Part shown: positions 15,352-58,601 of the stretch, one piece after another
Numbering within the stretch: the first letter of the stretch is position 1
How the letters are laid out: each line of letters begins with the position of its first letter
DNA from: Trichomonas vaginalis G3
Taxonomy: Eukaryota > Parabasalia > Trichomonadida > Trichomonadidae
Direction of reading: 5' to 3'
DNA length: 64,000 nt
Assembly: GCF_026262505.1 (NCBI RefSeq)
Contig: NC_067207.1
Location: forward strand, 7,532,082-7,596,081
The notes under the pieces: generated by a model
What the model was told of the DNA's origin: nothing
Databases searched by the model: none
Seen by the model: only the letters and a program-made list of their open reading frames with translations
Translations under genes and position numbers: made by a program

Positions 15352-18300
15352 ATGTACAGAATAGATGTTTCAGATTTTTATGACTTCCAAGCATTCAGAA
15401 ATATGTGTCCATTTCGAGACTATAACAAAGCAGTCGAGAATTTGAAACGTTTAGTCATTTATGTTGACTCTGCCCCAGAATGTTATGTCATGAAAGAATG
15501 GGATGTTGTCTTTAACAAACCAAGAGCAACAATAGTGTCTGAACAAGAATGTAGACAGAAACTTAAGAAAATAAAAGTTGTACAAGTTGGAAGGAAGATG
15601 TTAGATGCTTGGGATATCTTATTGTCAAAGTTAGAAGATTTTTCAGTTCGAGGTATAAAGTTCTATACACCATCTCCAAACTTCTATTCTATCTTCACTG
15701 GATATAAATACGAACAAGTAGAATGGACTTTCAAAGTTAACGCTCCAGAGGATCATAATAAGACAAAGTTACTTGTTGTTGTTGAGTTCGCCGCCAATCA
15801 TAAATCCAACTTAGGTACCGGTAATGTTACATATTCTTCCACAGTCCCCACACCAGTTATCGAGAGTGTTCAATACAACGATGGCAACGAAGTAATTTCA
15901 GGCAATCCATACACAGCCAAAATCATACTCGAAACAGGCTTAAATATTACAAAGACATATTATCTCTTTGCAACAGAAAGCGAAGCTTCCAACGCCTCTG
16001 CCACTAGCGTCAAAACATCACAAAATGTTAGCACTGCAACAGCCGTAGCAAGCACGAACAAGACAGAATGGACTTTCAAAGTTAACGCTCCAGAGGATCA
16101 TAATAAGACAAAGTTACTTGTTGTTGTTGAGTTCGCCGCCAATCATACATCCGAGTTAGGTACCGGCAATGTTACATATTCTGACACACTCTCCACACCA
16201 GTTATCGATAGAGTTCTTTACAACGATGGCAACGAAGTAATTTCAGGCAATTTATACTCAGCCAAAATCATACTCAAAAGTAACTTAACAATTACAAAGA
16301 CATATTATCTCTTTGCAACAGAAAGCAACGCTTCCAGCGCCTCTGTCACTAGCGTCAAAACATCACAAAATGTTAGCACTGCAACAGCCGTAGCAAGCAC
16401 GAACAAGACAGAATGGACTTTCAAAGTTAACGCTCCAGAGGATCATAATAAGACAAAGTTACTTGTTGTTGTTGAGTTCGCCGCCAATCATACATCCGAG
16501 TTAGGTACCGGCAATGTTACATATTCTGACACACTCTCCACACCAGTTATCGATAGAGTTCTTTACAACGATGGCAACGAAGTAATTTCAGGCAATTTAT
16601 ACTCAGCCAAAATCATACTCAAAAATAACTTAACAATTACAAAGACATATTATCTCTTTGCAACAGAAAGCAACGCTTCCAGCGCCTCTGTCACTAGCGT
16701 CAAAACATCACAAAATGTTAGCACTGCAACAGCCGTAGCAAGCACGAACAAGACAGAATGGACTTTCAAAGTTAACGCTCCAGAGGATCATAATAAGACA
16801 AAGTTACTTGTTGTTGTTGAGTTCGCCGCCAATCATACATCCGAGTTAGGTACCGGCAATGTTACATATTCTGACACACTCTCCACACCAGTTATCGATA
16901 GAGTTCTTTACAACGATGGCAACGAAGTAATTTCAGGCAATTTATACTCAGCCAAAATCATACTCAAAAATAACTTAACAATTACAAAGACATATTATCT
17001 CTTTGCAACAGAAAGCAACGCTTCCAGCGCCTCTGTCACTAGCGTCAAAACATCACAAAATGTTAGCACTGCAACAGCCGTAGCAAGCACGAACAAGACA
17101 GAATGGACTTTCAAAGTTAACGCTCCAGAGGATCATAATAAGACAAAGTTACTTGTTGTTGTTGAGTTCGCCGCCAATCATACATCCGAGTTAGGTACCG
17201 GCAATGTTACATATTCTGACACACTCTCCACACCAGTTATCGATAGAGTTCTTTACAACGATGGCAACGAAGTAATTTCAGGCAATTTATACTCAGCCAA
17301 AATCATACTCAAAAGTAACTTAACAATTACAAAGACATATTATCTCTTTGCAACAGAAAGCAACGCTTCCAGCGCCTCTGTCACTAGCGTCAAAACATCA
17401 CAAAATGTTAGCACTGCAACAGCCGTAGCAAGCACGAACAAGACAGAATGGACTTTCAAAGTTAACGCTCCAGAGGATCATAATAAGACAAAGTTACTTG
17501 TTGTTGTTGAGTTCGCCGCCAATCATACATCCGAGTTAGGTACCGGCAATGTTACATATTCTGACACACTCTCCACACCAGTTATCGATAGAGTTCTTTA
17601 CAACGATGGCAACGAAGTAATTTCAGGCAATTTATACTCAGCCAAAATCATACTCAAAAAACTTAACAATTACAAAGACATATTATCTCTTTGCAACAGA
17701 AAGCAACGCTTCCAGCGCCTCTGTCACTAGCGTCAAAACATCACAAAATGTTAGCACTGCAACAGCCGTAGCAAGCACGAACAAGACAGAATGGACTTTC
17801 AAAGTTAACGCTCCAGAGGATCATAATAAGACAAAGTTACTTGTTGTTGTTGAGTTCGCCGCCAATCATACATCCGAGTTAGGTACCGGCAATGTTACAT
17901 ATTCTGACACACTCTCCACACCAGTTATCGATAGAGTTCTTTACAACGATGGCAACGAAGTAATTTCAGGCAATTTATACTCAGCCAAAATCATACTCAA
18001 AAATAACTTAACAATTACAAAGACATATTATCTCTTTGCAACAGAAAGCAACGCTTCCAGCGCCTCTGTCACTAGCGTCAAAACATCACAAAATGTTAGC
18101 ACTGCAACAGCCGTAGCAAGCACGAACAAGACAGAATGGACTTTCAAAGTTAACGCTCCAGAGGATCATAATAAGACAAAGTTACTTGTTGTTGTTGAGT
18201 TCGCCGCCAATCATACATCCGAGTTAGGTACCGGCAATGTTACATATTCTGACACACTCTCCACACCAGTTATCGATAGAGTTCTTTACAACGATGGCAA

Positions 18301-21300
18301 CGAAGTAATTTCAGGCAATTTATACTCAGCCAAAATCATACTCAAAAATAACTTAACAATTACAAAGACATATTATCTCTTTGCAACAGAAAGCAACGCT
18401 TCCAGCGCCTCTGTCACTAGCGTCAAAACATCACAAAATGTTAGCACTGCAACAGCCGTAGCAAGCACGAACAAGACAGAATGGACTTTCAAAGTTAACG
18501 CTCCAGAGGATCATAATAAGACAAAGTTACTTGTTGTTGTTGAGTTCGCCGCCAATCATACATCCGAGTTAGGTACCGGCAATGTTACATATTCTGACAC
18601 ACTCTCCACACCAGTTATCGATAGAGTTCTTTACAACGATGGCAACGAAGTAATTTCAGGCAATTTATACTCAGCCAAAATCATACTCAAAAATAACTTA
18701 ACAATTACAAAGACATATTATCTCTTTGCAACAGAAAGCAACGCTTCCAGCGCCTCTGTCACTAGCGTCAAAACATCACAAAATGTTAGCACTGCAACAG
18801 CCGTAGCAAGCACGAACAAGACAGAATGGACTTTCAAAGTTAACGCTCCAGAGGATCATAATAAGACAAAGTTACTTGTTGTTGTTGAGTTCGCCGCCAA
18901 TCATACATCCGAGTTAGGTACCGGCAATGTTACATATTCTGACACACTCTCCACACCAGTTATCGATAGAGTTCTTTACAACGATGGCAACGAAGTAATT
19001 TCAGGCAATTTATACTCAGCCAAAATCATACTCAAAAATAACTTAACAATTACAAAGACATATTATCTCTTTGCAACAGAAAGCAACGCTTCCAGCGCCT
19101 CTGTCACTAGCGTCAAAACATCACAAAATGTTAGCACTGCAACAGCCGTAGCAAGCACGAACAAGACAGAATGGACTTTCAAAGTTAACGCTCCAGAGGA
19201 TCATAATAAGACAAAGTTACTTGTTGTTGTTGAGTTCGCCGCCAATCATACATCCGAGTTAGGTACCGGCAATGTTACATATTCTGACACACTCTCCACA
19301 CCAGTTATCGATAGAGTTCTTTACAACGATGGCAACGAAGTAATTTCAGGCAATTTATACTCAGCCAAAATCATACTCAAAAATAACTTAACAATTACAA
19401 AGACATATTATCTCTTTGCAACAGAAAGCAACGCTTCCAGCGCCTCTGTCACTAGCGTCAAAACATCACAAAATGTTAGCACTGCAACAGCCGTAGCAAG
19501 CACGAACAAGACAGAATGGACTTTCAAAGTTAACGCTCCAGAGGATCATAATAAGACAAAGTTACTTGTTGTTGTTGAGTTCGCCGCCAATCATACATCC
19601 GAGTTAGGTACCGGCAATGTTACATATTCTGACACACTCTCCACACCAGTTATCGATAGAGTTCTTTACAACGATGGCAACGAAGTAATTTCAGGCAATT
19701 TATACTCAGCCAAAATCATACTCAAAAATAACTTAACAATTACAAAGACATATTATCTCTTTGCAACAGAAAGCAACGCTTCCAGCGCCTCTGTCACTAG
19801 CGTCAAAACATCACAAAATGTTAGCACTGCAACAGCCGTAGCAAGCACGAACAAGACAGAATGGACTTTCAAAGTTAACGCTCCAGAGGATCATAATAAG
19901 ACAAAGTTACTTGTTGTTGTTGAGTTCGCCGCCAATCATACATCCGAGTTAGGTACCGGCAATGTTACATATTCTGACACACTCTCCACACCAGTTATCG
20001 ATAGAGTTCTTTACAACGATGGCAACGAAGTAATTTCAGGCAATTTATACTCAGCCAAAATCATACTCAAAAATAACTTAACAATTACAAAGACATATTA
20101 TCTCTTTGCAACAGAAAGCAACGCTTCCAGCGCCTCTGTCACTAGCGTCAAAACATCACAAAATGTTAGCACTGCAACAGCCGTAGCAAGCACGAACAAG
20201 ACAGAATGGACTTTCAAAGTTAACGCTCCAGAGGATCATAATAAGACAAAGTTACTTGTTGTTGTTGAGTTCGCCGCCAATCATACATCCGAGTTAGGTA
20301 CCGGCAATGTTACATATTCTGACACACTCTCCACACCAGTTATCGATAGAGTTCTTTACAACGATGGCAACGAAGTAATTTCAGGCAATTTATACTCAGC
20401 CAAAATCATACTCAAAATAACTTAACAATTACAAAGACATATTATCTCTTTGCAACAGAAAGCAACGCTTCCAGCGCCTCTGTCACTAGCGTCAAAACAT
20501 CACAAAATGTTAGCACTGCAACAGCCGTAGCAAGCACGAACAAGACAGAATGGACTTTCAAAGTTAACGCTCCAGAGGATCATAATAAGACAAAGTTACT
20601 TGTTGTTGTTGAGTTCGCCGCCAATCATACATCCGAGTTAGGTACCGGCAATGTTACATATTCTGACACACTCTCCACACCAGTTATCGATAGAGTTCTT
20701 TACAACGATGGCAACGAAGTAATTTCAGGCAATTTATACTCAGCCAAAATCATACTCAAAAGTAACTTAACAATTACAAAGACATATTATCTCTTTGCAA
20801 CAGAAAGCAACGCTTCCAGCGCCTCTGTCACTAGCGTCAAAACATCACAAAATGTTAGCACTGCAACAGCCGTAGCAAGCACGAACAAGACAGAATGGAC
20901 TTTCAAAGTTAACGCTCCAGAGGATCATAATAAGACAAAGTTACTTGTTGTTGTTGAGTTCGCCGCCAATCATACATCCGAGTTAGGTACCGGCAATGTT
21001 ACATATTCTGACACACTCTCCACACCAGTTATCGATAGAGTTCTTTACAACGATGGCAACGAAGTAATTTCAGGCAATTTATACTCAGCCAAAATCATAC
21101 TCAAAAATAACTTAACAATTACAAAGACATATTATCTCTTTGCAACAGAAAGCAACGCTTCCAGCGCCTCTGTCACTAGCGTCAAAACATCACAAAATGT
21201 TAGCACTGCAACAGCCGTAGCAAGCACGAACAAGACAGAATGGACTTTCAAAGTTAACGCTCCAGAGGATCATAATAAGACAAAGTTACTTGTTGTTGTT

Positions 21301-22637
21301 GAGTTCGCCGCCAATCATACATCCGAGTTAGGTACCGGCAATGTTACATATTCTGACACACTCTCCACACCAGTTATCGATAGAGTTCTTTACAACGATG
21401 GCAACGAAGTAATTTCAGGCAATTTATACTCAGCCAAAATCATACTCAAAAATAACTTAACAATTACAAAGACATATTATCTCTTTGCAACAGAAAGCAA
21501 CGCTTCCAGCGCCTCTGTCACTAGCGTCAAAACATCACAAAATGTTAGCACTGCAACAGCCGTAGCAAGCACGAACAAGACAGAATGGACTTTCAAAGTT
21601 AACGCTCCAGAGGATCATAATAAGACAAAGTTACTTGTTGTTGTTGAGTTCGCCGCCAATCATACATCCGAGTTAGGTACCGGCAATGTTACATATTCTG
21701 ACACACTCTCCACACCAGTTATCGATAGAGTTCTTTACAACGATGGCAACGAAGTAATTTCAGGCAATTTATACTCAGCCAAAATCATACTCAAAATAAC
21801 TTAACAATTACAAAGACATATTATCTCTTTGCAACAGAAAGCAACGCTTCCAGCGCCTCTGTCACTAGCGTCAAAACATCACAAAATGTTAGCACTGCAA
21901 CAGCCGTAGCAAGCACGAACAAGACAGAATGGACTTTCAAAGTTAACGCTCCAGAGGATCATAATAAGACAAAGTTACTTGTTGTTGTTGAGTTCGCCGC
22001 CAATCATACATCCGAGTTAGGTACCGGCAATGTTACATATTCTCTTGGAAAGTCTCCATATTTATCTGCGCCAACTGTTGTTGCTGAAAATCATACAGGA
22101 CCATTCAAGGCCGGTGAATATATTCCAGTTAAAGTTACATTACAACACTTTGAGGCAAAGACAGGAAACTTCCAATATAGATTCTATGCAGATCAGAAAT
22201 GGATAGATCTCCCAGACGACAATGTAACTGAAGTAGAAACCCCATCTGCAATTAAGAAATTACATGCCGACGAAGGCAAAACATATCTACTCAACATTCC
22301 AGCTCCAAAGTATGAAGATATCAAAGAAGATGGGAAAGTTAAACTTCAAATTAGGTTAGCTGGATCCAAAGATCAAGCTCAATCCAATATCATTGAAACA
22401 GAGGTTTCACTTCAGAAACAACAATACGTTGCACCAAGCCCTGATGATTCCAAGCCAACTCCAACACCTGAAAATAGTGGACTTACTGGTGGACAGAAGG
22501 CTGGTATTGTTATTGGCGTTCTTCTTGCTGTTATCCTTATTATTCTCATCATCTACTTCGTTTTCTGCAGGAAACCATCTAAAGATAAATCATCATCTGA
22601 TATCCAAGATGATTCCGGCTCCGGTGTTAATGTGTAA
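15352..22637 (+). pseudogene. Chimeric gene: Maverick primase-like N-terminus fused to 18-repeat surface protein, copy 2
   Basis: The first 792 codons (to 17730) form one open frame: about 123 Maverick residues, then surface repeats. The frame is broken three times at the same spot of the repeat, CTCAAAAATAAC: two bases are lost near 17660 and one each near 20414 and 21792. After the array come a unique extracellular domain (22040-22440), a Pro-rich stalk, one membrane helix and a 26-residue cytoplasmic tail ending GVNV at 22637. Each 115-residue unit has seven N-glycosylation sequons (NKT, NHT, NVT, NLT, NAS, NVS, NKT), as expected for an ectodomain. No signal peptide survives. Compared with copy 1, the stalk has five extra residues (KDQAQ). 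Confidence 0.75.
15721..22040 (+). repeat. 345-bp coding tandem repeats, 18 units plus a partial
   Basis: The anchor GAATGGAC occurs at 15721, 16066, 16411, 16756, 17101, 17446, 17789, 18134, 18479, 18824, 19169, 19514, 19859, 20204, 20548, 20893, 21238, 21583 and 21927. Intervals are 345 bp except 343 at 17446 and 344 at 20204 and 21583. Units 2 to 18 are almost identical; the main variant is AAAAGTAAC against AAAAATAAC (Ser or Asn). The first unit resembles the copy 1 type. This pattern indicates recent expansion by unequal exchange. Confidence 0.97.
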
Positions 22638-22806
22638 TTTAATTTAATTAAGGATGTCAATTTGGAAGAAAAGTGAGAAAATTCCTAAAATGCTAAAAAT
22701 GAATTTTCCAAACGTACTTTTTTATCTCATTTTTTTTGATTTTGAAAAAAATTTGGAGAGAAGAACTCTTCGTTTTTGAATTTTGTCACGATGGTTTTAA
22801 AGTATA

Positions 22807-22832
22807 GGGTGTCCAAAGGTGTGTTTAGCACA
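22807..22832 (+). repeat. Mariner left terminal inverted repeat
   Basis: Twenty-six bases, GGGTGTCCAAAGGTGTG then TTTAGCACA. They pair with 25060-25085 with a single T/C difference. Confidence 0.93.
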
Positions 22833-23360
22833 AACCTGAATACTGCGAATAGAAATAAACAAGTTACATATATATAAAGTTTATTTAAATATAATCACCA
22901 TTGGATTCAATCACGCGTTCGCAGCGATCGATCCAGGCTTGAAAGACACGCTTTAAATCATCATGAGAAAATTGCTCAAATTGCTCTCTTACAAAATTTT
23001 CAAGATCATCTGGACTCGCGAATTCGCGTCCTTCAGCTCTCTTTTTTAGCGTGCCGAATAAATAAAAGTCAGAGGGTGCAATATCAGGTGAATAAATTGG
23101 GTTTGGAACAACTTTGACATTGTTTTCCACCAAGTAATTCATTACCTTATGACTTTTGTGAACTCTTGAATTATCAAAATGAATTGCAAACTTTTGTTTT
23201 TGTTGTTTGGATTTCTCAAACTCATCAGAATTGATAATTTGAGTAAGAACATTGTCAATTAGATACTGAGCATTCATCGTATTAGGTTTTTGAAGAATAT
23301 CAATTGCGATGATGTCATTTACGCCCCAAAAAACCGACAACATCATCATTGGTGTGTCAA

Positions 23361-24319
23361 TTTTTTTCTTCGGGAATGTTTGCGGATTTTTCTCGTAAAC
23401 GAAAAAGGGGATTTGACGGAGTCAAATCCCCGCTCGCAAAAAGTGGACTTTACATGTCAAATTTTATATGCATGTAATGTCCACTTTTATGAGTTTTAGG
23501 AAGGAATTGGAAGCCATGAGTTACTGACATTTCATCAGTATCTCATAGCCTCCAATTCCTTCTTAAAATGGGAGAAACTTTGTCCGAATAGTTTAACATT
23601 CGGACAAAGTTTCTCCCATTTTAAGAAGGAATTGGAGGGTAAGAGATATACCATATGAATGTATATCTCTTACCCTCCAATTCCTTCTAGAAAGTGTCCA
23701 AACTTTGGGTTAATTGCAAACTATTAACCCAAAGTTTGGACACTTTCAAGTGGAGATGGAAGGCTTTGGGGTATATATTAATACAATATACCTCAAAGCC
23801 TTCCATCTCCACTACAAATGGGAGAAACTTTGTCCGAATAGTTTAACATTCGGACAAAGTTTCTCCCATCTTTCAATGTAATTGCTACCTGTGAGGTACT
23901 GACTTGAAGTCAGTGCTTCACAGGTAGCAATATCCAAAAATTTAAAAACATTTTATCAGTTCGTTAAAGAACTAGAGCCTCCTAGGTACTGAACCAGAAT
24001 CAGTGCCTAGGGGACTCTAGTGATCTATATAAATCTGAGAAACTTTGAGGAAATTGTTCGACATTTCCTCAAAGTTTCTCAGCAATTTAGCGAGGAATGT
24101 TCGTTATCGTGTAGATATTTATAATATATACATGATAACAAACATTCTCCGCTAAAAGATGTAAAATCTTATAAGAAATGATTGCAAAAGAATAACAAAT
24201 TGCAACAAATTTTATATGAAACTGAACCTTATGAGGTAGTGATTCAAGATCACCGCCTCATAAGATTCAGTTTCAATCTCAAGTATCTCAAAAGTAAGGC
24301 TCTATTTTTTGCCATGTAA
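23361..24319. other. Cluster of about 13 hairpins inserted in the mariner transposase
   Basis: Stems read directly (arms; loop): 23407-23431 (11 bp; 3), 23439-23488 (17 of 18; 14), 23501-23561 (24 of 27; 7), 23549-23638 (41 bp perfect; 8), 23624-23688 (28 bp perfect; 9), 23690-23747 (25 bp perfect; 8), 23749-23813 (28 bp, one G-T; 9), 23818-23869 (22 bp perfect; 8), 23881-23931 (23 bp, two G-T; 5), 23971-24021 (22 bp with two G-T and one mismatch; 7), 24035-24082 (20 bp perfect; 8), 24086-24156 (28 positions, four imperfect; 15), 24217-24275 (27 positions, three imperfect; 5). Both borders carry GTGTCA, a possible target duplication. No ORF or terminal inverted repeat is seen. The hexamer and block structure are direct observations; function is unknown. 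Confidence 0.9.
23549..23638. repeat. 41-bp perfect inverted repeat overlapping two hairpins
   Basis: Arms 23549-23589 and 23598-23638 are perfectly complementary around the 8-base loop AGTTTAAC. Its outer 15 or so bases on each side are also used by the neighbouring hairpins (23501-23561 and 23624-23688), so alternative, mutually exclusive foldings exist. The inner 22 bp and loop are repeated exactly at 23818-23869. Confidence 0.92.
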
Positions 24320-25059
24320 AGTGTCACTTTACTGTCAAACCGTTTTTATCGTTTTCGTTTACAACATTTTCATCCTTCGGGATCCATATGATTTTGGCTT
24401 CTGTTGCATATTGAAACCAAGACTCGTCCCCTGTTACTAAAAAGCGAAACTTCTTGGATTGATACGCACCCAATATAGAGAGGAGCTCTTTCGAAGATTG
24501 GACTCTAGATTTTTTTTGAACTGAATTAAGGTTGTGCGGAACCCAACGTGTATACGCTAGTTTGTAGTTCAAATAATTGTGCAGATAATAACTGACTGTT
24601 GTACGTGGTATCTTTGTCATCTCCTCTATCCTTCTAAGTGATGCTCTTGGGTCTTCATCTAGCGCTTGAAGAATTGCTTTGATTTTTCTTTGATCCGGCG
24701 ATTTTTTGTCAATTTTTATGATGGGCGCCTTTTTGTTCATGAAGTGATACATCCTAACATGATACGTTACAGTGGAATAGCTAGGAGCATCCATACCGAA
24801 GCATTTTACCAATGTCTCGTAGATTTTTTTACAGTCTTTGCATTTTTTGCAAGAGCGAGGATGTTTTCTTTATGATTCATTAAAAAAATGAAAAAAATCC
24901 CGCCAAAATTTCCCGCGAAACCGCCTCTTGTCTCAAAATTCATTTTATATCCCGGCATGGCGCCAAAATACAACATACTCATCATATACATATATTCATA
25001 TTTTTTATTATATATTTATAATCAGCATATATCTCCTTTAATAGTCTCATATAGAGCGC

Positions 25060-25085
25060 TGTGCTAAACGCACCTTTGGACACCC
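25060..25085 (-). repeat. Mariner right terminal inverted repeat
   Basis: Inverted match of 22807-22832, followed by the TA duplication at 25086-25087. Confidence 0.93.
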
Positions 25086-25121
25086 TATATATTATACACA
25101 TGTATTGATATTACTATTTTT

Positions 25122-44109: not shown

Positions 44110-45508
44110 ATGTCAAATGAAACAGCGTCTATGAGAGAAATACAACACAACCGACAACTCATTATACAAGCTCTAAATAAGAACACAACAAACTTTTCAA
44201 ACTATTCTAAGATATCTGAGTCATTGAAAGAAGGAAATTTAAAACTGACATTAAACCCAATGACAGATGAGTTTCTATTTCAAGACAATAAGAACCATAC
44301 TGTCTGTATAAATCCAACAAAAGGAACTTTAAACGAGAAACCTATAAATGAACTTCTTTTGAAAGCAGATGTTGACAACAAAGCAGACAAAACATATGTA
44401 GACGATGCAATAGCAAAAGAAGAAGAAAGAGCTGACAAAGCTTATGCAACAAAAGAACATACTCATCCTGAACTAGCAGACAAAACATATGTTGACAATA
44501 AAATGTCAAGTGAAGTGACAAGAGCTGAAAACGAATATTCTAAAAAGACTCATATACATACCATTGCAAATATTACAAACTTACAAGAAACCTTAAACAG
44601 TAAAAGTGCCGTTGGACATACACATACCATTGCAAATATTACAAACTTACAAGAAACCTTAAACAGGAAAAGTGCCGTTGGACATACACATACCATTGCA
44701 AATATTACAAACTTACAAGAAACCTTAAACAGGAAAAGTGCCGTTGGACATACACATACATCTTCTGAAATAACAGACTTAAACGTTAGCCTTGAAAAGA
44801 AAGCAGATAAGAACCATACACATACAAGTTTTACAACTGTTGCTATAGAAAGTATTGAAGGAACGGTTGAAGAAACTGGTGGGGATGCATTATATTGGAA
44901 ACCTCCTAACTTTCCACAAGGTTTAACATCGGATGACGACATAACGACGATGAGAAACATTAGATGTAAAGATGTTTATGTCATGAAGGATGAATATAAT
45001 ATTAAATTCACTGCTCAAGATTTATATGACAAGAAAGCAGACAAAACAGAGCTTCAAACATTAAAGACAGAAATACTTCAAACATTATATCCTATAGGCT
45101 CTATTTATACGTCAATGAACTCTACCAGACCAGAAGTAGTACTTGGTTTTGGAACTTGGACTCAAATAGTCGACAGGTTTTTGTATTGTGCAAACTCTTC
45201 AAAGGAAACAGGTGGAAGTAAAACGATTTCAGGTGAAAATTTACCTGCACACAGTCACTACATAGATTTAAGTACATCTCAAGCAGGTTGGCATAAGCAT
45301 AGATATTGGGATTGGTCAGCAATGACAAAAGGTAAAGGATATGATGTTAAAGACAACGTTAAGTTTGCTATAAAATTGTTTCTGGAGTAACACTGAGGGA
45401 GGAGGAAACCATACACATCGCGTTTCAGGATATACGCAAACAACGGGACAAAGTAAAGACTACATGCCACCTTACATGACAGTTTACGCATGGTATAGAA
45501 TTGCTTAG
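44110..45508 (+). pseudogene. Phage-type tail-fibre/collar protein, frameshifted in array copy 1
   Basis: Identical in layout to 55837-57234, but an extra A near 45372 (ATAAAATTG against ATAAATTG) shifts the last 45 codons or so, including the conserved MPPYMTVYAWYRIA end. It keeps Trp in DALYWKPPN, where array copy 2 has Cys. Confidence 0.85.
44557..44754 (+). repeat. 66-bp tandem repeat in the tail-fibre gene, 3 units
   Basis: Three 22-codon units, HTIANITNLQETLN(S/R)KSAVGHT, almost identical at DNA level. Unit 3 of the window (30853-31373) has none, so the repeat number is variable. Confidence 0.95.
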
Positions 45509-46464
45509 TCGTCATTTTCAACTTCTTTAGCATATTCGTCAGGAGTTGTCTTATATTTGTTAGGAACTGTCTTTGAAAGTATACCACCTTGAACTTTGAC
45601 AAGTTTGAAACGAGGTCTGACAATAGTAGTTTTATCTTCTGCTTGCAGTGTGTACATTTTGCCATGTTTGCCTAAAACTTCATAATATTCTCTTGTATAC
45701 TTTCTTCTATTTTTACGAACACGAATGTGAGTACCTGTCGGGTTCCCATTGTTGTCATAGTCAATAGTATTTTCATATGGGTCGCGTTTAGGTATTTCTA
45801 TTTTTACTTTGTCACCTTTCTGAAGTTTGAAGCCCGGCATTCTTTCTTGTTTGTCTCTTTTGACTAAATTATTAAATATATAGTCTTTCTCTAAGTCAGG
45901 GTTGTTTTTCATTTCTTCGGGGAATGGTTTCCCAAACCTTTTTGTTTACGGCTATTGTAAATATTTAAAACTTGTCTCATCTTTGCCTGGGAGAAGTGTC
46001 TATATTTGTCGTCATATGACATTTCATTTGCTTCACCACCTTGTGGTTGGTTTAAGTCTCTTAACATTTTTATACAACCGTCAATGACACCAAGAGCAGA
46101 ATGGTTTTGGTCGACAATGAAATATTGGTTTACATTTTTTGAACGCAGATAGTTTTTTTACATCATCTGATTTGAAAGAACTTTCACAGTCAGATGTCAG
46201 TTTTGTTGGATGGTATTTGTCAACGAATATTGTCAAAGCTGCTAAGATATCTAAAATAGCTTTGGACTGTAATGGTATGGCTTCACAGTATCTTGTATTT
46301 TGACCAACAAATATTAACCAGTATGGTGGTCCATCTTCTCTATACCTCGGAATGTTTTCCAAGATATCCATAAACCAAGCATTTGGTGTTGAACTAAAGA
46401 TTTTTATCATGAGTGCTTTCTTTGTCGCTTTAGAAACATAGGGGTCCTTGTTCGGATTCGTCAT
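45505..46464 (-). pseudogene. Maverick integrase, two frameshifts
   Basis: Counterpart of the intact gene at 57231-58190. An extra T near 46157 and a missing G near 45919 break it. The catalytic core and C-terminal domain are otherwise preserved. Its stop overlaps the tail-fibre stop on the other strand (TTAG). Confidence 0.85.
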
Positions 46465-46843
46465 TTTTTACCCTATAAGAAATGGGTTTATTTGGCGCAT
46501 TAGCAGGAGTTGCATCCGTCTGGTATCCGACATAGAAAATTCCATTGCAACCTTTCTTGTCAGACAACTTGGCAGAAGGTTTTATTTCAATGTCTTGTTC
46601 CACGTATAAGAATGAGTTGTCAATATAAATAATATGAAACCTGTCGCAAGCAATATCTACTGTTGTTGAAGAACCTTCTCCAAACTCACCTACGTTTCCA
46701 TAAGAAACAGCAGTTGTATATTCGTAAGTTCCAGGAACTATTTCTGACCTTCTAATGGCATTGTCGCATTCGTTATACCATTCGGAAACATTTCCGTTCA
46801 TGGCATCCAAAACTGTTGGCGTTATATTCTGAGCGGCATACAT
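46430..46843 (-). pseudogene. Capsid gene 5' stub, 108 codons, array copy 1
   Basis: Codons 1-108 match the capsid gene, up to GIFYVGYQ. Then an internal deletion joins it to DNA just upstream of the integrase start, adding about 29 unrelated codons that overlap the integrase start in another frame. The rest of the capsid gene and whatever lay beyond it are missing. Confidence 0.85.
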
Positions 46844-46875
46844 TTCATATGGGTAAAAATATAGAATAGTTGGAT

Positions 46876-49800
46876 TTATATGTCATAATAGAACCCACTC
46901 GGACCAAGCTTTACTTTCTTCCTGACTGAGTTTTTAACTGAGTTTTTAACTCTTCTTTTTCCTTCATTGCACTACTTTCACTAGATGAAGTTACTTCTTC
47001 ACTACTTTCACTTTGTTCTACTCTTCTCTTCTTCTTTGGTGTCGCTTTTGGTAACTTGCCCTCTGCTTCAAGTTGTTGCATCTTTGCCTCATGTTCACCT
47101 AGTATGTTGTAAATTTCCCATGTCCTTTTTGCCTTTGGGCTCTGGTCGCCCATCTCAGGTAACCTATATCCTAGAAAGATTTTGTCATAGTTTGTATTTG
47201 AGTCGTCGCTTATTGTTTGCATGACTCTTTCCTGAGTTTCCGGTTCAAGCTCTTCAAACAGAGCTTGTCCATATGGAATAAGCTCGTTTCCAAATATATG
47301 TTTTTGTAGCCATTCTGGTTTTCTTTCCATGTAACCAATAATATCTTTTGTGAATGGGAAAGCTTTTACCCAACGTTTCAGTCTTGCGTCATTTATTTCT
47401 GTAGTTGGTTTTATTTTGTCAAGGAACATGTTTTTCAATACTAACATTTCATTTGGTACTGTCCATTTGAGTTTTCTTAAATATTCATCCCTTCTCATTT
47501 CATTGTCTGCAAAGTAAGTTTTTATGGCATTTTGCAAACTTTCGTTTGCAAGGTCATGTACAATAGGTTCTCTTCCGTCTCTCTCCCTAACTTTCTTTCT
47601 AAACTCTTCACCAAATATACCATCTCTATGGTTCTGTGTAGTTCTTTGAGATAAATGTTCTAGAACGTCAGGTGTTATATTTCCCTCAGCCATGTTCATT
47701 TCATACTGGTCCAAAATATCTGCATCTTTCATATCTTTCAATGGCATTAAAGCCGCGCTGAAAATACCCGTTATATCTGGTTCACCATTCACTTCCATTG
47801 CGTCTACAACTTCTTGGAATTGAGGTTGTAAGTTTATGAACCACCTATCCGGATTAGCTTTATGACCCCACTTCATTGTAGTTCCATAGTCTGCAGAAAC
47901 AAAAGTAGGTTTGTTTCCATATTGGTTAGGTTCTGAATGAACTTTAAACAATGTTTCATTTCTATATGTTTTGTTGAAATTTAACCTTTTATTTTCACCG
48001 AGTTCAGCCAAAGATTGAACGTTATATGGTCGTAAGTAAAAAGGATTATTGTATTTGCGTACATTTTCTTTCAGTACTTCCACTCTATGCTGAATATTTT
48101 CATCTGATGTTGGAGTCTTTTGTATGTCGGTGAACATTTTTCGATATCCTTCTACTATGTCAGCCGAATTTTTCTTAGACTCTTGGAAAGATTCCATATT
48201 CTCCTCATACTCTTGTTGAGGGTCAAGATTTTTCGGCTGTTCCAAATCTTCATCTAGTTCTGTGAAGTTAGTTTCCAAAGGAGGGACTTGTTCGTTTCCT
48301 TCAGGCTCTTCTAGCTGTTGTTGCTGAACTATTTCTTCCATGTCTGGTTGTATCTGAACTTCTTCCTGTTGAGTTTCTTGTACCTCATCTGCTGGCATTT
48401 CATATATTCCGAGACCGTTTTTAACAAGTTCCCTATCTAAGTCATCCGGACTCATAAACCTTTCTTCTTTCGTTCCGTCTCTATTTTTTACACGTTTCAT
48501 GAAGAGAGTTGAATTATCATTTAGCTCTGACATCAAATATCTCGGAGTAAATTCATCCATGTCATTTGGATGATATGCTATTAAATCATATCCCTTAGCG
48601 AGCTTGTATTTTCCAGGTTTGAGATTATATCCGATTTGATGCTGAACCATAAAGCTAAATAGGTTCGGGTCAGTATTTCCTTCCTTGAACTTTCTAATAG
48701 CTTCTTTATATCTGTCACTAAAGTCAAGAGTATCTGGGTAACCATAATCTTCCTTAAGCATTTTTAAGAATTCTTGGTTTCCTTTTTCTCTACTTCTTTT
48801 ATGTCCTTGCTCTGTTTGTGGTTGTTGTTGTGCAGGGTTTTGAACTGTTGGTTGCTGTGCTGGTTGTGCTGGTTTTGGTTGTTGTGCTGGATTTTGAACT
48901 GTTGGTTGCTGTGCAGGGTTTTGAACTGTTGGTTTTGGTTGTTGTTGTGGTGCTGGATTTTGAACTGTTGGTTGTTGTGTTGGTTTTGTTGCATGCCTGT
49001 GTCTGTGTCCATGTGACGATGTAAATGTTTTAGGTAGTCCTGGTGCAGGTGCTTCTCTTGGAGGGTTTGGTGGTATATAAGTTCCACCAGCTGGCACATA
49101 TGTTCCATCTGCAGCATAGTGTCCTACCTGACTTTTCGTTCTTAAGAAAGCATTTACTAGGTCTGTTTTGATCTGTTGTAACTCTTTTTCTTGACTTTCC
49201 ACAACAGTTGCTCTAACGGCGTCATAGGCACTTTGAACTGCCTGTCTCGTTGCTGCATCTGTTATTTTCGTCATATTTTGTGCTACTTCTCTTAACTCTT
49301 TGTCGAAACCTTCAGACTTCAGTTTCTTTCCAGATGAGAAGTCGTTCACTAGTTTCACCTTACTATGAAGAGCTTCGAAGGCATTCTTAAAGTCAGCATT
49401 CATTAAAGCTTCATTTGAACTGTCTTCATCCGCTTGTATTTTTGTCCTTATTGACCCTATAAGTTGGGCTGCTTTAGCGTTGGCTTGGGCATCTAACCAG
49501 TCATTATTAGCTTTTATATATTCTGCGCTGTTCATTGCCTTTTGCATGGCTGCGTCGTTATTTTTACTTTCTTGTGCTAAGTTTTCATACTGTACGGTTT
49601 GGTTTTGCAACTGTAAAAGTTTTTCTGCCTTTACATTTGCTTCAACTTCTTTTTTATACTCATCGCTATCCATATATGTCTTCAGGGCTTTTTGTTTTAT
49701 TTCTTCATCTTTCAGTACTTTATATTGAGTAGTATGGTTTTTCAAATTTATAACATCTTGTTCCATTTTTGCTACTTCTGCTGCTTTTTCTGACACTTTT

Positions 49801-50249
49801 TTCGCATATTCCTCTGTACTTAGTTCTTTCAGTTGTTCTTCTTTCTTCTTTTTCTCTACGTTTAACTCATTGAGTTTCTTTGTGTGTCTGTCATATTCTA
49901 GTTTCTTTTCGTTTTCACTTATTTGTTTCTGTATGTCTATGTTTGACTTTTTGACATCTGTTATTTGATTTTTGAGTGAACTCAAATTCATTTGACTTTG
50001 AGGGTTATAAGCTGTTCCGTCTGCAGCTCCACCATAGCCTGCCATTTTCGCTAAAAGTGCCGCTCTTAAACCTCCACTCTGTGCACCAATAACTCGGTTT
50101 AAAAGCATAGGGTTGCTTGACATTTGTTGCAACATAGTGGGGTCATTCATCATTTGTTGTTGCAACTGTTGTTGTGGTGTCAGTTTTACTATTGGATGTT
50201 TCAATGCTCCCTTCCTCTTACGTATATTCTTACGTAGCTTACGTGGCAT
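46876..50249 (-). pseudogene. Large coiled-coil protein, late frameshift in array copy 1
   Basis: Open for about 1090 codons from 50249. One C is missing near 46966, which changes the last 30 codons or so and removes the final basic tail. All major regions are present. The product could still work if the tail is dispensable. Confidence 0.8.
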
Positions 50250-50720
50250 TTTAAGTGAAGTTAAAAAGCGGTTTTTGACAGATGTTTATATGACACTTTT
50301 TGTTCAGCACAAAAAACTACTCGGTCAAAGTGTTGTCAGTTTTGTAAAATAACCGTCCTATCTCATTCTATAAGGGGAAAAAGGCTTCTCAAAGTATACT
50401 TCCTTGGAACGCCCGTAACTTTTCCTGTAGCGACGATAGACCCTTACTTGTCCGGACAAAGTTATACTATTTTGAGTGCTCTACAAAAAAGTCAACGGCG
50501 ACGACTCTCAAAAACCGTTGTGTAAAAAGTTTTACCGTTGGACAAAAAAGTATATATAGAAAACAAAAAACGTTTATACTTCATTCAATATTTGAAATAA
50601 ACCGTTTTTCCAATGGTAACTATTAAATAAAATAAAAAATAGAGGGGGTTACCGTTGACGAAAACGGTTTATCTCAAATATTTAAATATCTGTCTTTTTT
50701 GGTCAGTTCATTTTTATCTA
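50250..50720. promoter_or_regulatory. Intergenic control region with clustered CCGTTG/CAACGG sites
   Basis: This 470-bp gap between divergent genes has six CCGTT/AACGG sites in about 175 bp: 50493-50498, 50515-50520, 50535-50540, 50602-50606, 50652-50657 and 50663-50667. CAACGG fits the Myb consensus YAACNG, and T. vaginalis has many Myb proteins. The left half is richer in G and C than its surroundings. A regulatory region or a replication start are both possible. Confidence 0.4.
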
Positions 50721-51623
50721 ATGGAAGCCAACGCTGTTAACCACAATTCAAACATTAACAATTCTCAACCGCTAACCAAAGCCAAAGCCCCACAACCTCC
50801 AAGAACTGGCACAGCGGTTAGAATAACCACCAAAAAGTCTAACAGCGAATTAAGAGAAATTCTTCAACAAATTTGCTCTAAATATCTCAAAGACGCCGAA
50901 GAAAACACACAACCAGACGCTACATACAATACTCAGTTCTGTGAAGTTCTGAACAAAGCAATTACTAGTTCAATTGAACTTACTAAGACAATTCCAAGTC
51001 CAATTGAGCTTAGCGATGTCTTAGTTCAGTATTTTCCAACATTTACTAAGCTTATAATGTTGAGAACTTTATACCAAGTTCGTCAAAATCTTCCTCGTTA
51101 CATCCAACGGTCATTCGACAAGAGAATTGCCGAATTCCAAGTCTTTAGTTACGGATATGACGAAGATGAATACGTTGACGAGTTCGGAGACAACCGTACA
51201 AAATGGTTTGAATGTTATACGACAACACAATTTGAATTGGACTTTCTCGAATTCAACGCAGCAACCATTCATATCATTGCTCTTTACCTTTCCGAACAAC
51301 AACAAGACCTCGCAGATGGAGATGTTGTTACTGTCGTCATGAAAACTCCTGAACAATTCGGAAAAAAGAAGTCTCTAATTGCCAAATTCGTTCCAGGACA
51401 TCAGCTTTTCCAACGCACAGAAGTCTTGTGTATTCCTGGAACTAAGTTCTTTGTCAGGAGCGAACTCAAAGAAAGATATAATGTGTCATTCAATTACACA
51501 TTATATAATGTTTTCGACCCAGAAGAAGGCTTCTTCCCAGAAGCAATGGAGGAGGAAGAAGAGGAGGAGGAAATACAAGACTCTATCCAAGAAGAGTCCT
51601 CCGAATTCACACCAGAAGACTAA
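50721..51623 (+). CDS. Maverick acidic-tailed protein, 300 aa
   Basis: The start at 50721 follows TTTTTATCTA. Upstream TTG-initiated codons are rejected. Residues 1-40 are Asn/Pro/Lys-rich and probably disordered, 45-150 helical, 150-265 mixed. The tail is a Glu run (EEEEEEEEI) ending FTPED. The segment RTEVLCIPGTKFFV recalls the final strand region of ADP-ribosyltransferase folds (EVLxPPGTxFxV), but I cannot see the other motifs, so this is only a hint. The last 125 bp lie inside the right TIR. Third-position G/C is higher than in neighbouring Maverick genes, as if it had another origin or stronger expression. Confidence 0.7.
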   Translation: MEANAVNHNSNINNSQPLTKAKAPQPPRTGTAVRITTKKSNSELREILQQICSKYLKDAEENTQPDATYNTQFCEVLNKAITSSIELTKTIPSPIELSDVLVQYFPTFTKLIMLRTLYQVRQNLPRYIQRSFDKRIAEFQVFSYGYDEDEYVDEFGDNRTKWFECYTTTQFELDFLEFNAATIHIIALYLSEQQQDLADGDVVTVVMKTPEQFGKKKSLIAKFVPGHQLFQRTEVLCIPGTKFFVRSELKERYNVSFNYTLYNVFDPEEGFFPEAMEEEEEEEEIQDSIQEESSEFTPED

Positions 51624-51711
51624 CAATTTTCCGAATAAAAACTTCATTTATACTAAACATCTTCGGGGCTAGAGGGCGCAACGCGCCTGGAAGCCCCACT
51701 ACCTTTTTTTT
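51499..51711 (-). repeat. Right TIR, array copy 1
   Basis: 213 bp, pairing with 41449-41567 except for a 94-bp segment present only here, which encodes the acidic tail. It ends CCCCACTACC-T8. Next to the terminus, GGGCGCAACGCGCC forms a small palindrome. Confidence 0.85.
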
Positions 51712-53384
51712 AAATACACTATAAGTTTAAGCTTTAGCTGTAAAATAAACAGTAATATTAAATAAACATTATATTATATAGTCGGAGCGATTCTATATAT
51801 GTACTCTTATGCCAACTAGTTACAACCTAGTAAAATACATGGAAATATTGTAATATCCTAGCATTGCTATCGAGAAATCAAAAAATATAAGCAAAAGTCA
51901 TCTTATATTTAAAGATTTTTCAAGAGCTTTGTTTGGAAATTAGTTCATTGGAAGAAGTATATAGATATGAAAACCCAAAGTATTAAGTTCGATAATATAT
52001 AGTTTTTTTTTATTTTAAAATTGAATGCATACAACATTGCTCCTCTGGAGTGAATTAATTAGTTCCAACTTTTTCAAGATTCTACAGTGTAATATGCTCC
52101 TTGGAATGTCTCTTGCATGAATGTTTTTGTTTACCATCTAAAGAATTAAGATTTGAGATACAATAATCTTTGGAAAAGTAGAGGATACAACAATAAAGTA
52201 TGTTCTTTCGATACATGATATCATTTTGTTACAAAAATATTCTTACTTACTCATGATTCAAAAAAAAGGTTGCAGACATACTAAAATGTTATTTATGTGG
52301 CTTGTATTTACTAGCATATGTAATTTGGTGCTAACGTATACCATCAATTTCATTATAACACAGACATATATATTACTATTAGAATTTTATTTTAATTCAA
52401 TGATAAAATCAAACATTCCTTTTTGAAAATCGTTCTATCTTGTTATTATCTTTGAATGCTGCATCAAGAACTAACAATTTACAATTTTTATTCAAATTAT
52501 AATATAAAATTATAGCATATTGGTTTTCAAAGTATGTTTGCTAAAAGTAATTGCGCTTATCGTTTACCCCCGCATTAACACATATAAATTTGTATTAAAA
52601 AATGATATCAAATCAAAAATATGGCTTCCTTGCTAAGAAAAGCGTCAAATTTATTATGTTTCTCCTTAGCCGAAAGTGTATAAATTGGCAGTTAGATTTA
52701 TAGTATCCTAACTGTTTTTTGTAAAGTTCGTCATATCTTTAATGGTACTATTTCAGCGTGTACAATGAATACAAAAATTCTAAGAGTGCCACATAAAATA
52801 GTACTTTAGACTTGAGTTAATGCTACCAAGCAAATGTTAAAAAGATGACTTTAGTGTTTTGATAATCAAAGATTAAAATCATTATTGTCTAAATCAATAA
52901 TCATAACGACAGAAGTTAATGTTTTTTCATCAGTGCTTTAAATCCACTTTTAAAAGTATACCTCAAAAATCAAAATATCAAAAAAAATCTAGTTTTTATG
53001 AATCTAAAGCTTTCTATAGTTCACATGCAAAAACCTTTAGTTTTATACTTTTTTATGGTTTTCATGAGACAAAAAGTTATGATTTAATAATTATTTTTAA
53101 TTTTCCGCTGTTATCAACATAGATGACAACTTCATACACTTAGTTATCTAATATCTTGACTATTACACTCCTTAACAAAAAAAAGGTAGTGGGGCTTCCA
53201 GGCGCGTTGCGCCCTCTAGCCCTGAAGATGTTTAGTATAAATGAAGTTTTTATTCGGAAAATTGTTAGTCTTCTGGGTCGAAAACATTATATAATATGTC
53301 ACTTTTCACAAATTATATATGTTTTCATGTTTTGTCACTTTTCTGTCACTTTTCGGGTAAAAACATTATTATTATTATATATAA

Positions 53385-54203
53385 ATGAATTTTACAAAAC
53401 CACCGTTACCCTTCTTTGGAAATAAGAGTAGATGTAAAGATATTATATTGAGAGAACTTAAGAAACTACCGAATGGTCTAACATTTGTAGATTTGTTCGG
53501 TGGAAGTTTCTATATATCCCATTTATGTCATACAATATTCCCAGACTCAAAGATTATATGCAATGACTTCGACAACTATATGGACCGTCTCAAACATATT
53601 CCAGACACAAACAATATATTGAAAGAGTTAAAAGAAAAGATACCTATAGGTAAGATGGAAAGTATACCATTAGATAAGAAAAATATTGTGAGAGAGGTTT
53701 TGAAAAAAGCAGAATATATAGATTGGGATAGTATATCTGCTAGACTATTATATAGTGGTGCTATAAGAGTTCATGACATTGAAACACTTATGTCAAAAGT
53801 TTTATATCTTAACTATACAAATGTTTTCAAAGAGGACATAGAAAAATATATTGAGGGTATAGAGTTTGTGAGATGTCATTGGACAGAGTTGTATGAAAAA
53901 TATAAAGACAAGGAAAATGTTTTCTTTATAGTGGACCCGCCGTTCTATAACACATGGGATTTTCAATACCAAGTAGACTGGACTTTGAGAGACTCTTTAG
54001 AAACTTTAGACGTTATACATAACCATCCATGCTTTTACTTTACATCCGATAAAAGTGGTTTGGAAACCGTTATGAGATGGTTAGAGGACATACATGACTA
54101 TGAGTTTATATATGACAAGATAGAATATGAGAGAGGTCCTATAAACTGGAGAAAGTGTCATAACAAAGAAATTTTACTAGTAAGTAAATGTGGTTTGAAA
54201 TAG
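53385..54203 (+). CDS. Dam-like DNA adenine-N6 methyltransferase, 272 aa, array copy 2
   Basis: All motifs are intact, including FVDLFGGSF in motif I, where array copy 1 has Arg. The catalytic DPPF is at residues 184-187. It is the only copy in the window with both an open frame and a normal motif I. As first gene inside the left TIR it has an AT-only 30-bp leader, TATTATTATTATATATAA and so on, before its ATG. Confidence 0.92.
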   Translation: MNFTKPPLPFFGNKSRCKDIILRELKKLPNGLTFVDLFGGSFYISHLCHTIFPDSKIICNDFDNYMDRLKHIPDTNNILKELKEKIPIGKMESIPLDKKNIVREVLKKAEYIDWDSISARLLYSGAIRVHDIETLMSKVLYLNYTNVFKEDIEKYIEGIEFVRCHWTELYEKYKDKENVFFIVDPPFYNTWDFQYQVDWTLRDSLETLDVIHNHPCFYFTSDKSGLETVMRWLEDIHDYEFIYDKIEYERGPINWRKCHNKEILLVSKCGLK

Positions 54204-54319
54204 GATTACTTGTTTTAAGTTTTTTCCATTGTGACATTTATTTATTTGACGTGGCAGAAAAGTACAGAGAATATAAAGATGAACCAATGCCTGCAAATGT
54301 TCAGCATATGTACTCGTAA
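54188..54319 (+). CDS. Small membrane peptide, 43 aa, array copy 2
   Basis: Identical to 42460-42591, with the start nested in the methyltransferase end. Confidence 0.45.
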   Translation: MWFEIGLLVLSFFHCDIYLFDVAEKYREYKDEPMPANVQHMYS

Positions 54320-54342
54320 GAGATATTTTTATCTAATATTAA

Positions 54343-54705
54343 ATGGACGCACAGAACTTAGCGAATGCACAGCAACCTGGACAACCAAACCCAGAGAATA
54401 TTCCAAATGAAGTTAGAATACAAACTGCAATGGCAAACTATGGTCAAGTGCCAACAGATGTACAAATGCAAACTGCCATGTCAAATGACGCTGTGTTAGG
54501 TTTGCCACCATGGTATGCAAATATGAGATGGAAAGAGTTTTATACAAACCCTGAAGTGGGATATAAACAACTTTATGCAGATGACGCGAACACAGGAGTT
54601 GACCCAGAATATGTTTTCTACCAGAGGAGAAACAGAATGTATGAGCTCCAGTTAAAGAATGCTATGGAACTCAACAGGAAACGTAAGAGACTAGGTGGAC
54701 ATTAG
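54343..54705 (+). CDS. Maverick hypothetical protein, 120 aa
   Basis: The intact copy. The N-terminal 60 residues are Gln/Asn/Pro-rich and hold two related stretches, VRIQTAMANYGQVP and VQMQTAMSNDAVLG, an internal repeat. The C-terminal 60 residues are helical and end in a strongly basic NRKRKRLGGH. The promoter block TTTTTATCTAATATTAA lies directly before the ATG. No family is recognised; a small virion or nucleic-acid-binding protein is possible from the basic end. Confidence 0.65.
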   Translation: MDAQNLANAQQPGQPNPENIPNEVRIQTAMANYGQVPTDVQMQTAMSNDAVLGLPPWYANMRWKEFYTNPEVGYKQLYADDANTGVDPEYVFYQRRNRMYELQLKNAMELNRKRKRLGGH

Positions 54706-54723
54706 ATTTTTACATATAGTAAA

Positions 54724-54966
54724 ATGGGTTTCTTCAGTAGTATTGGAAACTTCTTCAGAAGAGTTGGAAGAGGTATATGGAATGGAATAAAAACCGTAGG
54801 AAGAGGAATTTGGAACGGAGTCAAAAATATTGGTAAAAGAGTAGGTCAGTTTGTTGGTATTATACCTAAAGACCCTGAACCAGAAGAACAAGCTCCTGTT
54901 ATACAACAGCCTGAACCTGCACCACAGTCTAGTTGGCAACCAAATCCAACACCTCAACCGTATTAA
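54724..54966 (+). CDS. Basic amphipathic peptide with Pro-rich tail, 80 aa, array copy 2
   Basis: Identical to 42997-43239. The gene begins 18 bp after the 120-aa gene, with TTTTTACATATAGTAAA as leader. Confidence 0.7.
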   Translation: MGFFSSIGNFFRRVGRGIWNGIKTVGRGIWNGVKNIGKRVGQFVGIIPKDPEPEEQAPVIQQPEPAPQSSWQPNPTPQPY

Positions 54967-54970
54967 AAAA

Positions 54971-55818
54971 TTATATTTTTACCGTTCGATAGTAGTTGTA
55001 TATGAAACTAAGTTCTAAGTAAAACGCATGGTATAATGGAATTATTCTCTTTCTTCCATCTGTTGTAAACCATACTTGAAAGTCTGAAATACTTCCACTT
55101 GGTGGTTCATATAGCTTTGTAGGTTTTTCGTAAAAGTCATTTGCCAAGCATAAAAAAGAGTTTTGTGCACCAGAAAATGAAGCATGAACTATAATAGCAT
55201 CTGAGTCGAAAACATTTTCATATGTTCCATTAGGGTTTTCGACTTCATAAAAGTCCGGGTGTACTGGATATTCTGCAGGCTGATTTAACATCCTCATAAA
55301 TCTATACCATGCCAAGTTGTTATATTTTGTAGAAATATAAACGTTTTCTCCAAGGTCTTCTATTCTATTGATTTTAACAGTTGCATTTTTCCTGTCATAA
55401 ATAATATCGAGATGGTACTCTCCCTCGTCAATGTTATACTGGTTTGCATATTCGATATAGATGTCGTTTATTTTTTCTTGAAAAGCTTGAAGAGTTGTTT
55501 CTAAGTTTACAAGCAAACTAACTTGTAAAAGTTTTCCCTGTTCAAATTTCTCATACATACGTTTTTCTTTGTTATAGTATCGAACTTCAAAACCGACCGT
55601 AAATGGGAAACCATGTATGGCTTCTGAAATGAACTTCATTCTACGAAAGCCAATAGCTTTTGTGACGGATGGGTCTCTTAACCATCTTACGGGTAGTCAA
55701 AACGATAGCCTTCATGCTTTACGGTCTCTGTCTCAAACTTTTGACCGACATTCGTAAAAAGTTCATCTAATGGTTTAGTTGTAGCAACTCTTGAATTTTC
55801 TTTTTCTATTGAAAGCAT
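54971..55818 (-). pseudogene. Maverick 282-aa protein gene, frameshifted in array copy 2
   Basis: Here the break is near the 5' end: one A is missing near 55689 (CTTACGGG against CTTAACGGG). The 222-codon remainder to the stop is open and has the normal tail. Array copy 1 is broken near its 3' end, so neither copy is whole. Confidence 0.75.
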
Positions 55819-55836
55819 ATTTTATCTAGAATAAAA
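55819..55836. promoter_or_regulatory. Bidirectional TCTAGA promoter, array copy 2
   Basis: Same 18-bp spacer as 44092-44109. Confidence 0.5.
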
Positions 55837-58190: not shown

Positions 58191-58569
58191 TTTTTACCCT
58201 ATAAGAAATGGGTTTATTTGGCGCATTAGCAGGAGTTGCATCCGTCTGGTATCCGACATAGAAAATTCCATTGCAACCTTTCTTGTCAGACAACTTGGCA
58301 GAAGGTTTTATTTCAATGTCTTGTTCCACGTATAAGAATGAGTTGTCAATATAAATAATATGAAACCTGTCGCAAGCAATATCTACTGTTGTTGAAGAAC
58401 CTTCTCCAAACTCACCTACGTTTCCATAAGAAACAGCAGTTGTATATTCGTAAGTTCCAGGAACTATTTCTGACCTTCTAATGGCATTGTCGCATTCGTT
58501 ATACCATTCGGAAACATTTCCGTTCATGGCATCCAAAACTGTTGGCGTTATATTCTGAGCGGCATACAT
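58156..58569 (-). pseudogene. Capsid gene 5' stub, 108 codons, array copy 2
   Basis: Same deletion junction as in array copy 1, so the deletion precedes amplification. The stub differs from the full capsid at two positions (Tyr for Ser in IIYIDNS, Asp for Glu in LSDKKG). Confidence 0.85.
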
Positions 58570-58601
58570 TTCATATGGGTAAAAATATAGAATAGTTGGA
58601 T

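Follow-up and report, generated by a model that had tools for sequence, protein, structure and literature searches.

A hairpin cluster inserted in a Trichomonas vaginalis mariner: a probable IS481EU-type element carrying a palindromic satellite

Within a window of 64,000 nt from Trichomonas vaginalis G3 (GCF_026262505.1; NC_067207.1, positions 7,532,082–7,596,081 of the forward strand), a 976-bp element made up largely of hairpins sits in a mariner. Judged by its sequence, the block is very probably a copy of a non-autonomous IS481EU (Banshee)-type DNA transposon that jumped into the mariner. The explanation as a whole, an IS481EU-type element with a hairpin satellite that is kept by template switching and is selfish, appears likely to us. 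We do not regard the element as a new class of mobile element; the hairpin satellite inside it is apparently undescribed, the comparison with IS481EU being one with its text description. The analysis connects a recently named transposon superfamily with a hairpin satellite found in the repeat-rich genome of a parasite.

Results

Borders of the insertion

The interrupted mariner, which we take to be Tvmar1-like, has its transposase split over two minus-strand ORFs. The left ORF gives a DDE_3 match under the DDE_3 cut-off (Pfam), and the right one gives a helix-turn-helix match and extends 43 bp inside the insert. Tvmar1 is also the family name given in the excerpted text of PMC7845603. The preliminary description had the hairpin cluster inserted in a mariner, and this is borne out by an empty site: uninterrupted mariner copies (L035, L036 and L037; three of three examined) match the window to 23390 and resume at 24366, the two flanks overlapping by 5 bases in the uninterrupted copy. 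The limits of the block, previously placed at 23361–24319, are corrected to 23391–24366. The features of the insertion are as follows (window coordinates).

22803..25090, minus strand: host mariner, transposase split into ORFs 22885–23349 and 24324–24812
23387..23390: left target-site duplication (TSD), TTTT; a 5-bp ATTTT could also be read at this single site
23391..24366, plus strand: probable non-autonomous IS481EU-type element with hairpin array, 976 bp; ends common to L019, L040/L020 and L049; 4-bp TSDs; empty site in L035–L037
23391..23405, plus strand: left end TCTCGTAAACGAAAA, terminal repeat (inverted-repeat scan)
24352..24366, minus strand: right end TTTTCGTTTACAACA, terminal repeat (inverted-repeat scan)
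24367..24370: right TSD, TTTT (mariner empty site and junction comparison)

Where the block had been thought to lack terminal inverted repeats (TIRs), its ends share an exact 11-bp core (GTAAACGAAAA at 23395–23405 and TTTTCGTTTAC at 24352–24362). The motif GTGTCA, earlier offered as a possible target duplication, is rejected as such, one copy (23354) lying in the mariner and the other (24321) within the element; the duplication is TTTT. Mariner was also considered as the class of the insert and rejected, the TSD being TTTT and not TA and the mariner being the interrupted host. The same ends are flanked by separate duplications in independent copies, namely GAAT (L040/L020), TTTT (L019) and TGAC (L049). 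Altogether a 4-bp TSD is present at four of the five distinct junction pairs of this 1-kb type; the fifth, L021, has a 1-bp match and no 4-bp duplication, and looks rearranged. No ORF of at least 100 aa lies wholly within the 976-bp element.

Hairpins within the element

An inverted-repeat scan of the insert gave 13 hairpins with arms of 11–34 nt and loops of 3–14 nt, which span 722 of its 976 bp and have perfect stems in six cases. Two hairpin classes recur here and in related arrays. Class B has stems mostly of 20–26 nt with the core AAACTT and a loop mostly of 8 nt; class A has stems mostly of 22–34 nt whose inner part resembles GAGGTA.

23407..23431: hairpin, arms 11, loop 3 (GGA here, TCC in the copies on C3)
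23439..23488: hairpin, arms 18, loop 14, 1 mismatch
23494..23568: class A hairpin, arms 34, loop 7, 4 mismatches
23565..23622: class B hairpin, arms 25, loop 8, perfect
23625..23687: class A hairpin, arms 27, loop 9, perfect
23690..23747: class B hairpin, arms 25, loop 8, perfect
23749..23813: class A hairpin, arms 28, loop 9, 1 mismatch
23818..23869: class B hairpin, arms 22, loop 8, perfect; core 250 bp past the same core of the hairpin at 23565
23881..23931: class A hairpin, arms 24, loop 3, 2 mismatches
23971..24021: class A hairpin, arms 22, loop 7, 3 mismatches
24035..24082: class B hairpin, arms 20, loop 8, perfect
24086..24156: class A hairpin, arms 34, loop 3, 5 mismatches
24217..24275: class A hairpin, arms 27, loop 5, 3 mismatches

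The number agrees with the roughly 13 first noted, and it is beyond chance. Under a fixed scoring rule, the stretch 23361–24319 contains 11 non-overlapping hairpins at a score of at least 10, whereas 200 dinucleotide shuffles averaged 0.05 and never exceeded 1; at a score of at least 14, the full 64-kb window contains nine, every one of them within the block. The proposed comparison of the RNA fold with shuffled sequence gave the same picture: 23387–24366 (980 nt) folds at −516.5 kcal/mol, versus −209.9 (sd 6.6) in 20 shuffles (z −46).

Copies and amplification

When the whole genome was searched with the block, 20 of the best 40 of 1,305 candidates, including the window copy, fell in C5 7.45–8.25 Mb, nine in C3 21.42–21.61 Mb and one on C61; ten were single and dispersed. 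Across the C5 stretch (about 0.8 Mb) both the block (at least 20) and the right mariner junction (at least 23) recur in both orientations. The junction matches, obtained with the last 47 bp of the insert plus the right part of the mariner, are full-length, so the carrier region itself has been heavily amplified. Genome-wide, there are 147 occurrences of the element's final 17 bp (reversed control 0), and 77 of the 100 places listed from this total are outside the C5 and C3 clusters. Two such places, L049 and L050, both have the array; both ends are present in L049 only, and L050 has the right end alone, which abuts a Maverick end.

The ten dispersed copies (L009–L018) represent a distinct element of about 2.02 kb with the TIR TGTTGCATGCTAAGTTCGGTCAA and a TSD of 4 bp (5 bp in L015). 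Compared with L047, described below, the block and extra hairpins replace most of the transposase gene in these copies, and L009, the one 2-kb copy checked, has no reading frame of at least 80 aa within the element.

Relatives with a transposase gene

L047 is a 2,217-bp element with the TIRs of L009–L018 (about 23 bp) and the TSD GTTT. It consists, in order, of a TIR, a region matching the L009 transposase (its open frames interrupted in that copy), seven alternating class A and B hairpins, and a TIR. Taken together, the 2-kb and L047 types have a 4-bp TSD in 10 of 11 cases, L015 being the exception. A second transposase family is represented by L040 and L048, where the array likewise follows the gene on its 3´ side. 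By eye, their right end (...CGGTACGGAACA) and the left end of a different locus, L051, seem to form a TIR-like pair. The top NCBIfam match is IS481 for both the L009 ORF (E 3.9e-13, 49.6 bits) and the L040 ORF (E 1.1e-25, 90.7 bits), in each case below the curated cut-off of 224; Pfam recognizes an rve integrase core in both, under the cut-off in L009. IS481-like genes, as expected of an autonomous partner, were thus seen in the related families L047/L009 and L040/L048; no transposase gene with exactly the ends of the window element was found.

The hallmarks given for IS481EU in T. vaginalis, as far as the available text of PMC10045372 goes, are TNT..AYA ends, TSDs of about 4, 15 or 25 bp, and TIRs mostly below 50 bp. 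The window type has TCT..ACA, and L047 and the 2-kb type have TGT..ACA; the TSDs are 4 bp, and the TIRs comprise an exact 11-bp core in the window and about 23 bp in L047. The block had initially been matched to no transposon class, a view superseded by ends, 4-bp TSDs and relatives that fit IS481EU (PMC10045372, in the portion available). The non-autonomous T. vaginalis families of that text have in common with the present element TNT..AYA ends, short TIRs, 4-bp TSDs and an IS481-type transposase in relatives. Hairpins do not figure in that description, whereas the element here is full of them; a term search of the main text of PMC10045372 returned no match to 'hairpin' or 'palindrom'. Hairpin arrays in T. 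vaginalis or IS481EU were likewise found in none of the open-licence titles and abstract openings searched, nor in the accessible parts of PMC10045372, PMC7845603, PMC7844918, PMC10664404 and PMC12859917. The element may already be on file as a sequence among the published IS481EU consensus sequences.

Mavericks were met solely as neighbours of the element's relatives. A Maverick as carrier was suggested by L009, where a Maverick end is joined to the hairpin array, and was rejected: L047 shows that the integrase-like gene belongs to a small TIR element. Membership of the Maverick/Polinton class (large, with DNA polymerase B and a 6-bp TSD) was also rejected, the element having 976 bp, a 4-bp TSD and no ORF of at least 100 aa.

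Organization of the arrays

Alternation of the two classes is strict in three of ten arrays examined (ABABABA in L047 and ABABA twice in L009) and nearly strict in L045 and L046; the remaining arrays have breaks, some of which stem from the no-overlap rule of the scan or from sub-threshold hairpins. In L045, Tandem Repeats Finder reports a period of 248 bp repeated 9.7 times with 97% matches, each unit of about 250 bp holding four hairpins in the order A-B-A-B. L045 is thus a homogeneous tandem array, that is, a satellite. The window element, with spacings of 125 and 250, is a short, diverged stretch of such a satellite. One class-B core motif occurs 1,697 times in the genome (reversed-pattern control 0) and one class-A hairpin 495 times (reversed control 0); the class-B hairpin had no exact match in viral contigs or bacterial and archaeal genomes.

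Independent nested insertions of miniature inverted-repeat elements (MITEs), or an assembly artefact, would agree with short palindromes of MITE-like size and with a region situated in highly duplicated sequence. We consider either very improbable: several arrays have their hairpins in register, with a period of 125/250 bp and in much the same order, independent copies have 4-bp TSDs of their own, and the mariner has its empty site. A multicopy satellite or MITE that explained all hairpins as nested insertions had been named as grounds for abandoning the original view. Its first half has proved correct, in that the element is multicopy with a satellite-like array; its second half has not, the hairpins looking like in-register tandem units rather than nested ones.

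A search with the present ends found no pair of them around the L045 and L046 arrays, and this, together with the lone right end of L050, suggests that the satellite may also live outside the transposon. Two further repeats were seen beside arrays. In L048 (reverse complement, 1981–2567) another tandem repeat, with units of about 125 bp, intervenes between transposase gene and hairpins; as this is also the length of an A+B half unit, the repeat may represent a decayed or an ancestral form. At L046:3500–3790, tandem repeats of the ACTGACAGTAGCAGTACTTTT type adjoin the hairpin array.

Covariation and inverted loops

The stems covary almost perfectly. Pairing reaches 99.1% of 220 cells in 11 distinct class-B hairpins (all with 8-nt loops and arms of at least 20 nt, other class-B hairpins being excluded) and 95.7% of 301 cells in 15 class-A arm pairs (14 of 30 available and one from the window), figures that are inflated because the sequences are related and were selected as hairpins. 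The informative part is the both-sided changes, which affect 12 of 20 pairs in class B, with no pair changed on one side only, and 18 of 25 pairs in class A, with two changed on one side. Pairing in shuffled and slid controls was far below that observed.

Homologous hairpins also have inverted loops, at five places in all: GGA at 23418–23420 of the window versus TCC in the C3 copies; two loops of L048 versus L040 (cagatgca versus tgcatctg, and tatgc versus gcata); gttc versus gaac within L045; and the hairpin at C1:92521 versus that at C1:92771. A difference of L049 and L050 at 23696–23699 is mirrored at 23738–23741. The mismatches in 76 distinct hairpins (1,776 pairs, arms longer than 38 nt excluded) comprise 34 A·C, 33 G·U and 22 others, so there is no strand preference.

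Among 16 distinct close sequences (without L049 and L050), variable sites number 6 of 630 in stems versus 8 of 232 in linkers (p 0.028, uncorrected and from copies that are not independent), and 6 of 92 in loops; the stem variants among close copies are one-sided. When L049 and L050 are included, the counts are 24 of 630 and 10 of 232 (p 0.70), with 11 variable loop sites, and the difference is gone. The lower number of stem than linker variants among close copies could reflect selection on the stem.

Discussion

Taken together, loop flips, mirrored changes and the lack of strand bias favour arm-to-arm copying in DNA. The element would be mobilised by an IS481EU transposase acting in trans on its tips, and slippage or unequal exchange would lengthen and shorten the array by units of 125/250 bp. 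The arms would stay complementary chiefly because the palindromes fold in the course of replication or repair and one arm serves as template for the other (template switching), which could flip the loops as well. Whether it is template switching that maintains the stems we judge to be an even call. Selection on pairing could also maintain them, as the flips prove that arm exchange is possible and not that exchange is the keeper. Under template switching the array would be a selfish passenger with no host function, and its hairpins need not be RNA; near-perfect stem covariation is by itself no proof of RNA structure. The thousands of short palindromes make this a natural system in which to read mirrored arm changes and loop flips, and a comparison of strains would allow selection and template switching to be told apart in palindrome upkeep.

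An alternative is a transcribed array whose hairpins work at the RNA level, as precursors or decoys for the RNase III/Argonaute small-RNA pathway of the parasite, e.g. in controlling or protecting the transposon, with selection keeping the pairing. The very strong covariation in both classes, the stable fold, the unit size of 50–70 nt, the position of the arrays 3´ of the transposase gene in L047, L048 and L040, and the lower variability of stems than linkers among close copies all speak for it, as does the presence in T. vaginalis of 34-nt small RNAs, RNase III and two PIWI-like Argonautes (PMC7845603, in the text available). We nevertheless hold it to be rather unlikely. G·U and A·C mismatches are equally frequent and loops flip; the described small RNAs, at 34 nt, exceed most arms (PMC7845603, same portion), and miRNA reads amount to 0.0046% according to the abstract of PMC7844918. 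One class-B arm occurs 1,341 times forward and 1,314 times reverse in the genome, and isolated arms as small-RNA targets were sought among the places listed for it: none was seen apart from hairpin arrays, so there is no obvious target. Rfam gave no match at the gathering threshold for L047 and L045; with E<=0.1, window 22800–25100 gave 107 matches, all sub-gathering, mostly miRNA look-alikes and many on both strands. The earlier likening of the units to small-RNA precursors finds no support here, given the missing G·U strand preference, the Rfam result and the miRNA read fraction.

REP-associated transposases and integron integrases bind or cut folded hairpins. The palindromes might similarly persist for a role at the DNA level, if a transposase, recombinase or host factor binds or cuts them in their folded form; the array would then help the element to move or attract other insertions. 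Consistent with this are the perfect stems of class B with a fixed 8-nt spacer (in a set chosen for 8-nt loops) and invariant AAA/AAT blocks, loop flips that imply extrusion or template switching, and Maverick ends that abut the arrays of L009 and L050, with another 127 bp from the hairpin C1:92521. Tips and a 4-bp TSD suffice for insertion, however, arrays of widely differing length are mobile, and both genes scanned beside arrays (L009 and L040) are rve integrases, which makes such a role distinctly improbable in our estimation. A bolder proposal would make the arrays a working part of a eukaryotic DDE transposon lineage: two alternating palindrome classes, copied arm to arm, would promote their own amplification and provide recombination or insertion sites for the element or for Mavericks, as a eukaryotic counterpart of REP/BIME or attC. 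We think this unlikely.

Maverick ends (…TATACTAACT) were observed against or near arrays at L009:1946–1955, L050:646–655 and C1:92379 (hairpins at C1:92521), and a further one at C2:10237910 lies near a transposase at C2:10238308. These four adjacencies to an array or transposase look as if Mavericks insert into arrays; exact Maverick ends of this type number 436 in the genome.

Several known systems bear a likeness to the element. Bacterial REP/BIME arrays and REPINs consist of alternating hairpin classes in short arrays that are moved in trans; REP hairpins are smaller and depend on HUH (RAYT) transposases, whereas the relatives here have a DDE-type transposase, tips and a TSD. Foldback (FB) elements have inverted repeats composed of tandem short units, but form one large palindrome with the repeats at the ends, in contrast to the many small interior hairpins of the present element. 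Transposon-derived satellite DNA includes tandem arrays found inside transposons too; the 250-bp monomer here differs in being four hairpins. The pithovirus M1/M2 repeats (PMC10664404, as far as its text was available) offer a parallel of description and not of sequence: two palindrome types alternate as (M1-M2)n-M1, are MITE-like and spread by proposed recombination. They differ in their arms of 47–54 bp, a putative TA duplication and their location in giant virus genomes, and the authors, in the same portion of PMC10664404, did not find a transposase.

The window has other repeats besides. Self-comparison revealed tandem repetition at 15710–22043, with units of about 345 bp, in an array that overlaps and outruns a 792-aa ORF (15352–17730). 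At 39981–52273 and 51711–64000 there is a 12.3-kb tandem duplication, 99.9% identical, containing ORFs that Pfam matches to DUF4106 and to phage-tail repeats (PTR, Gp10_C).
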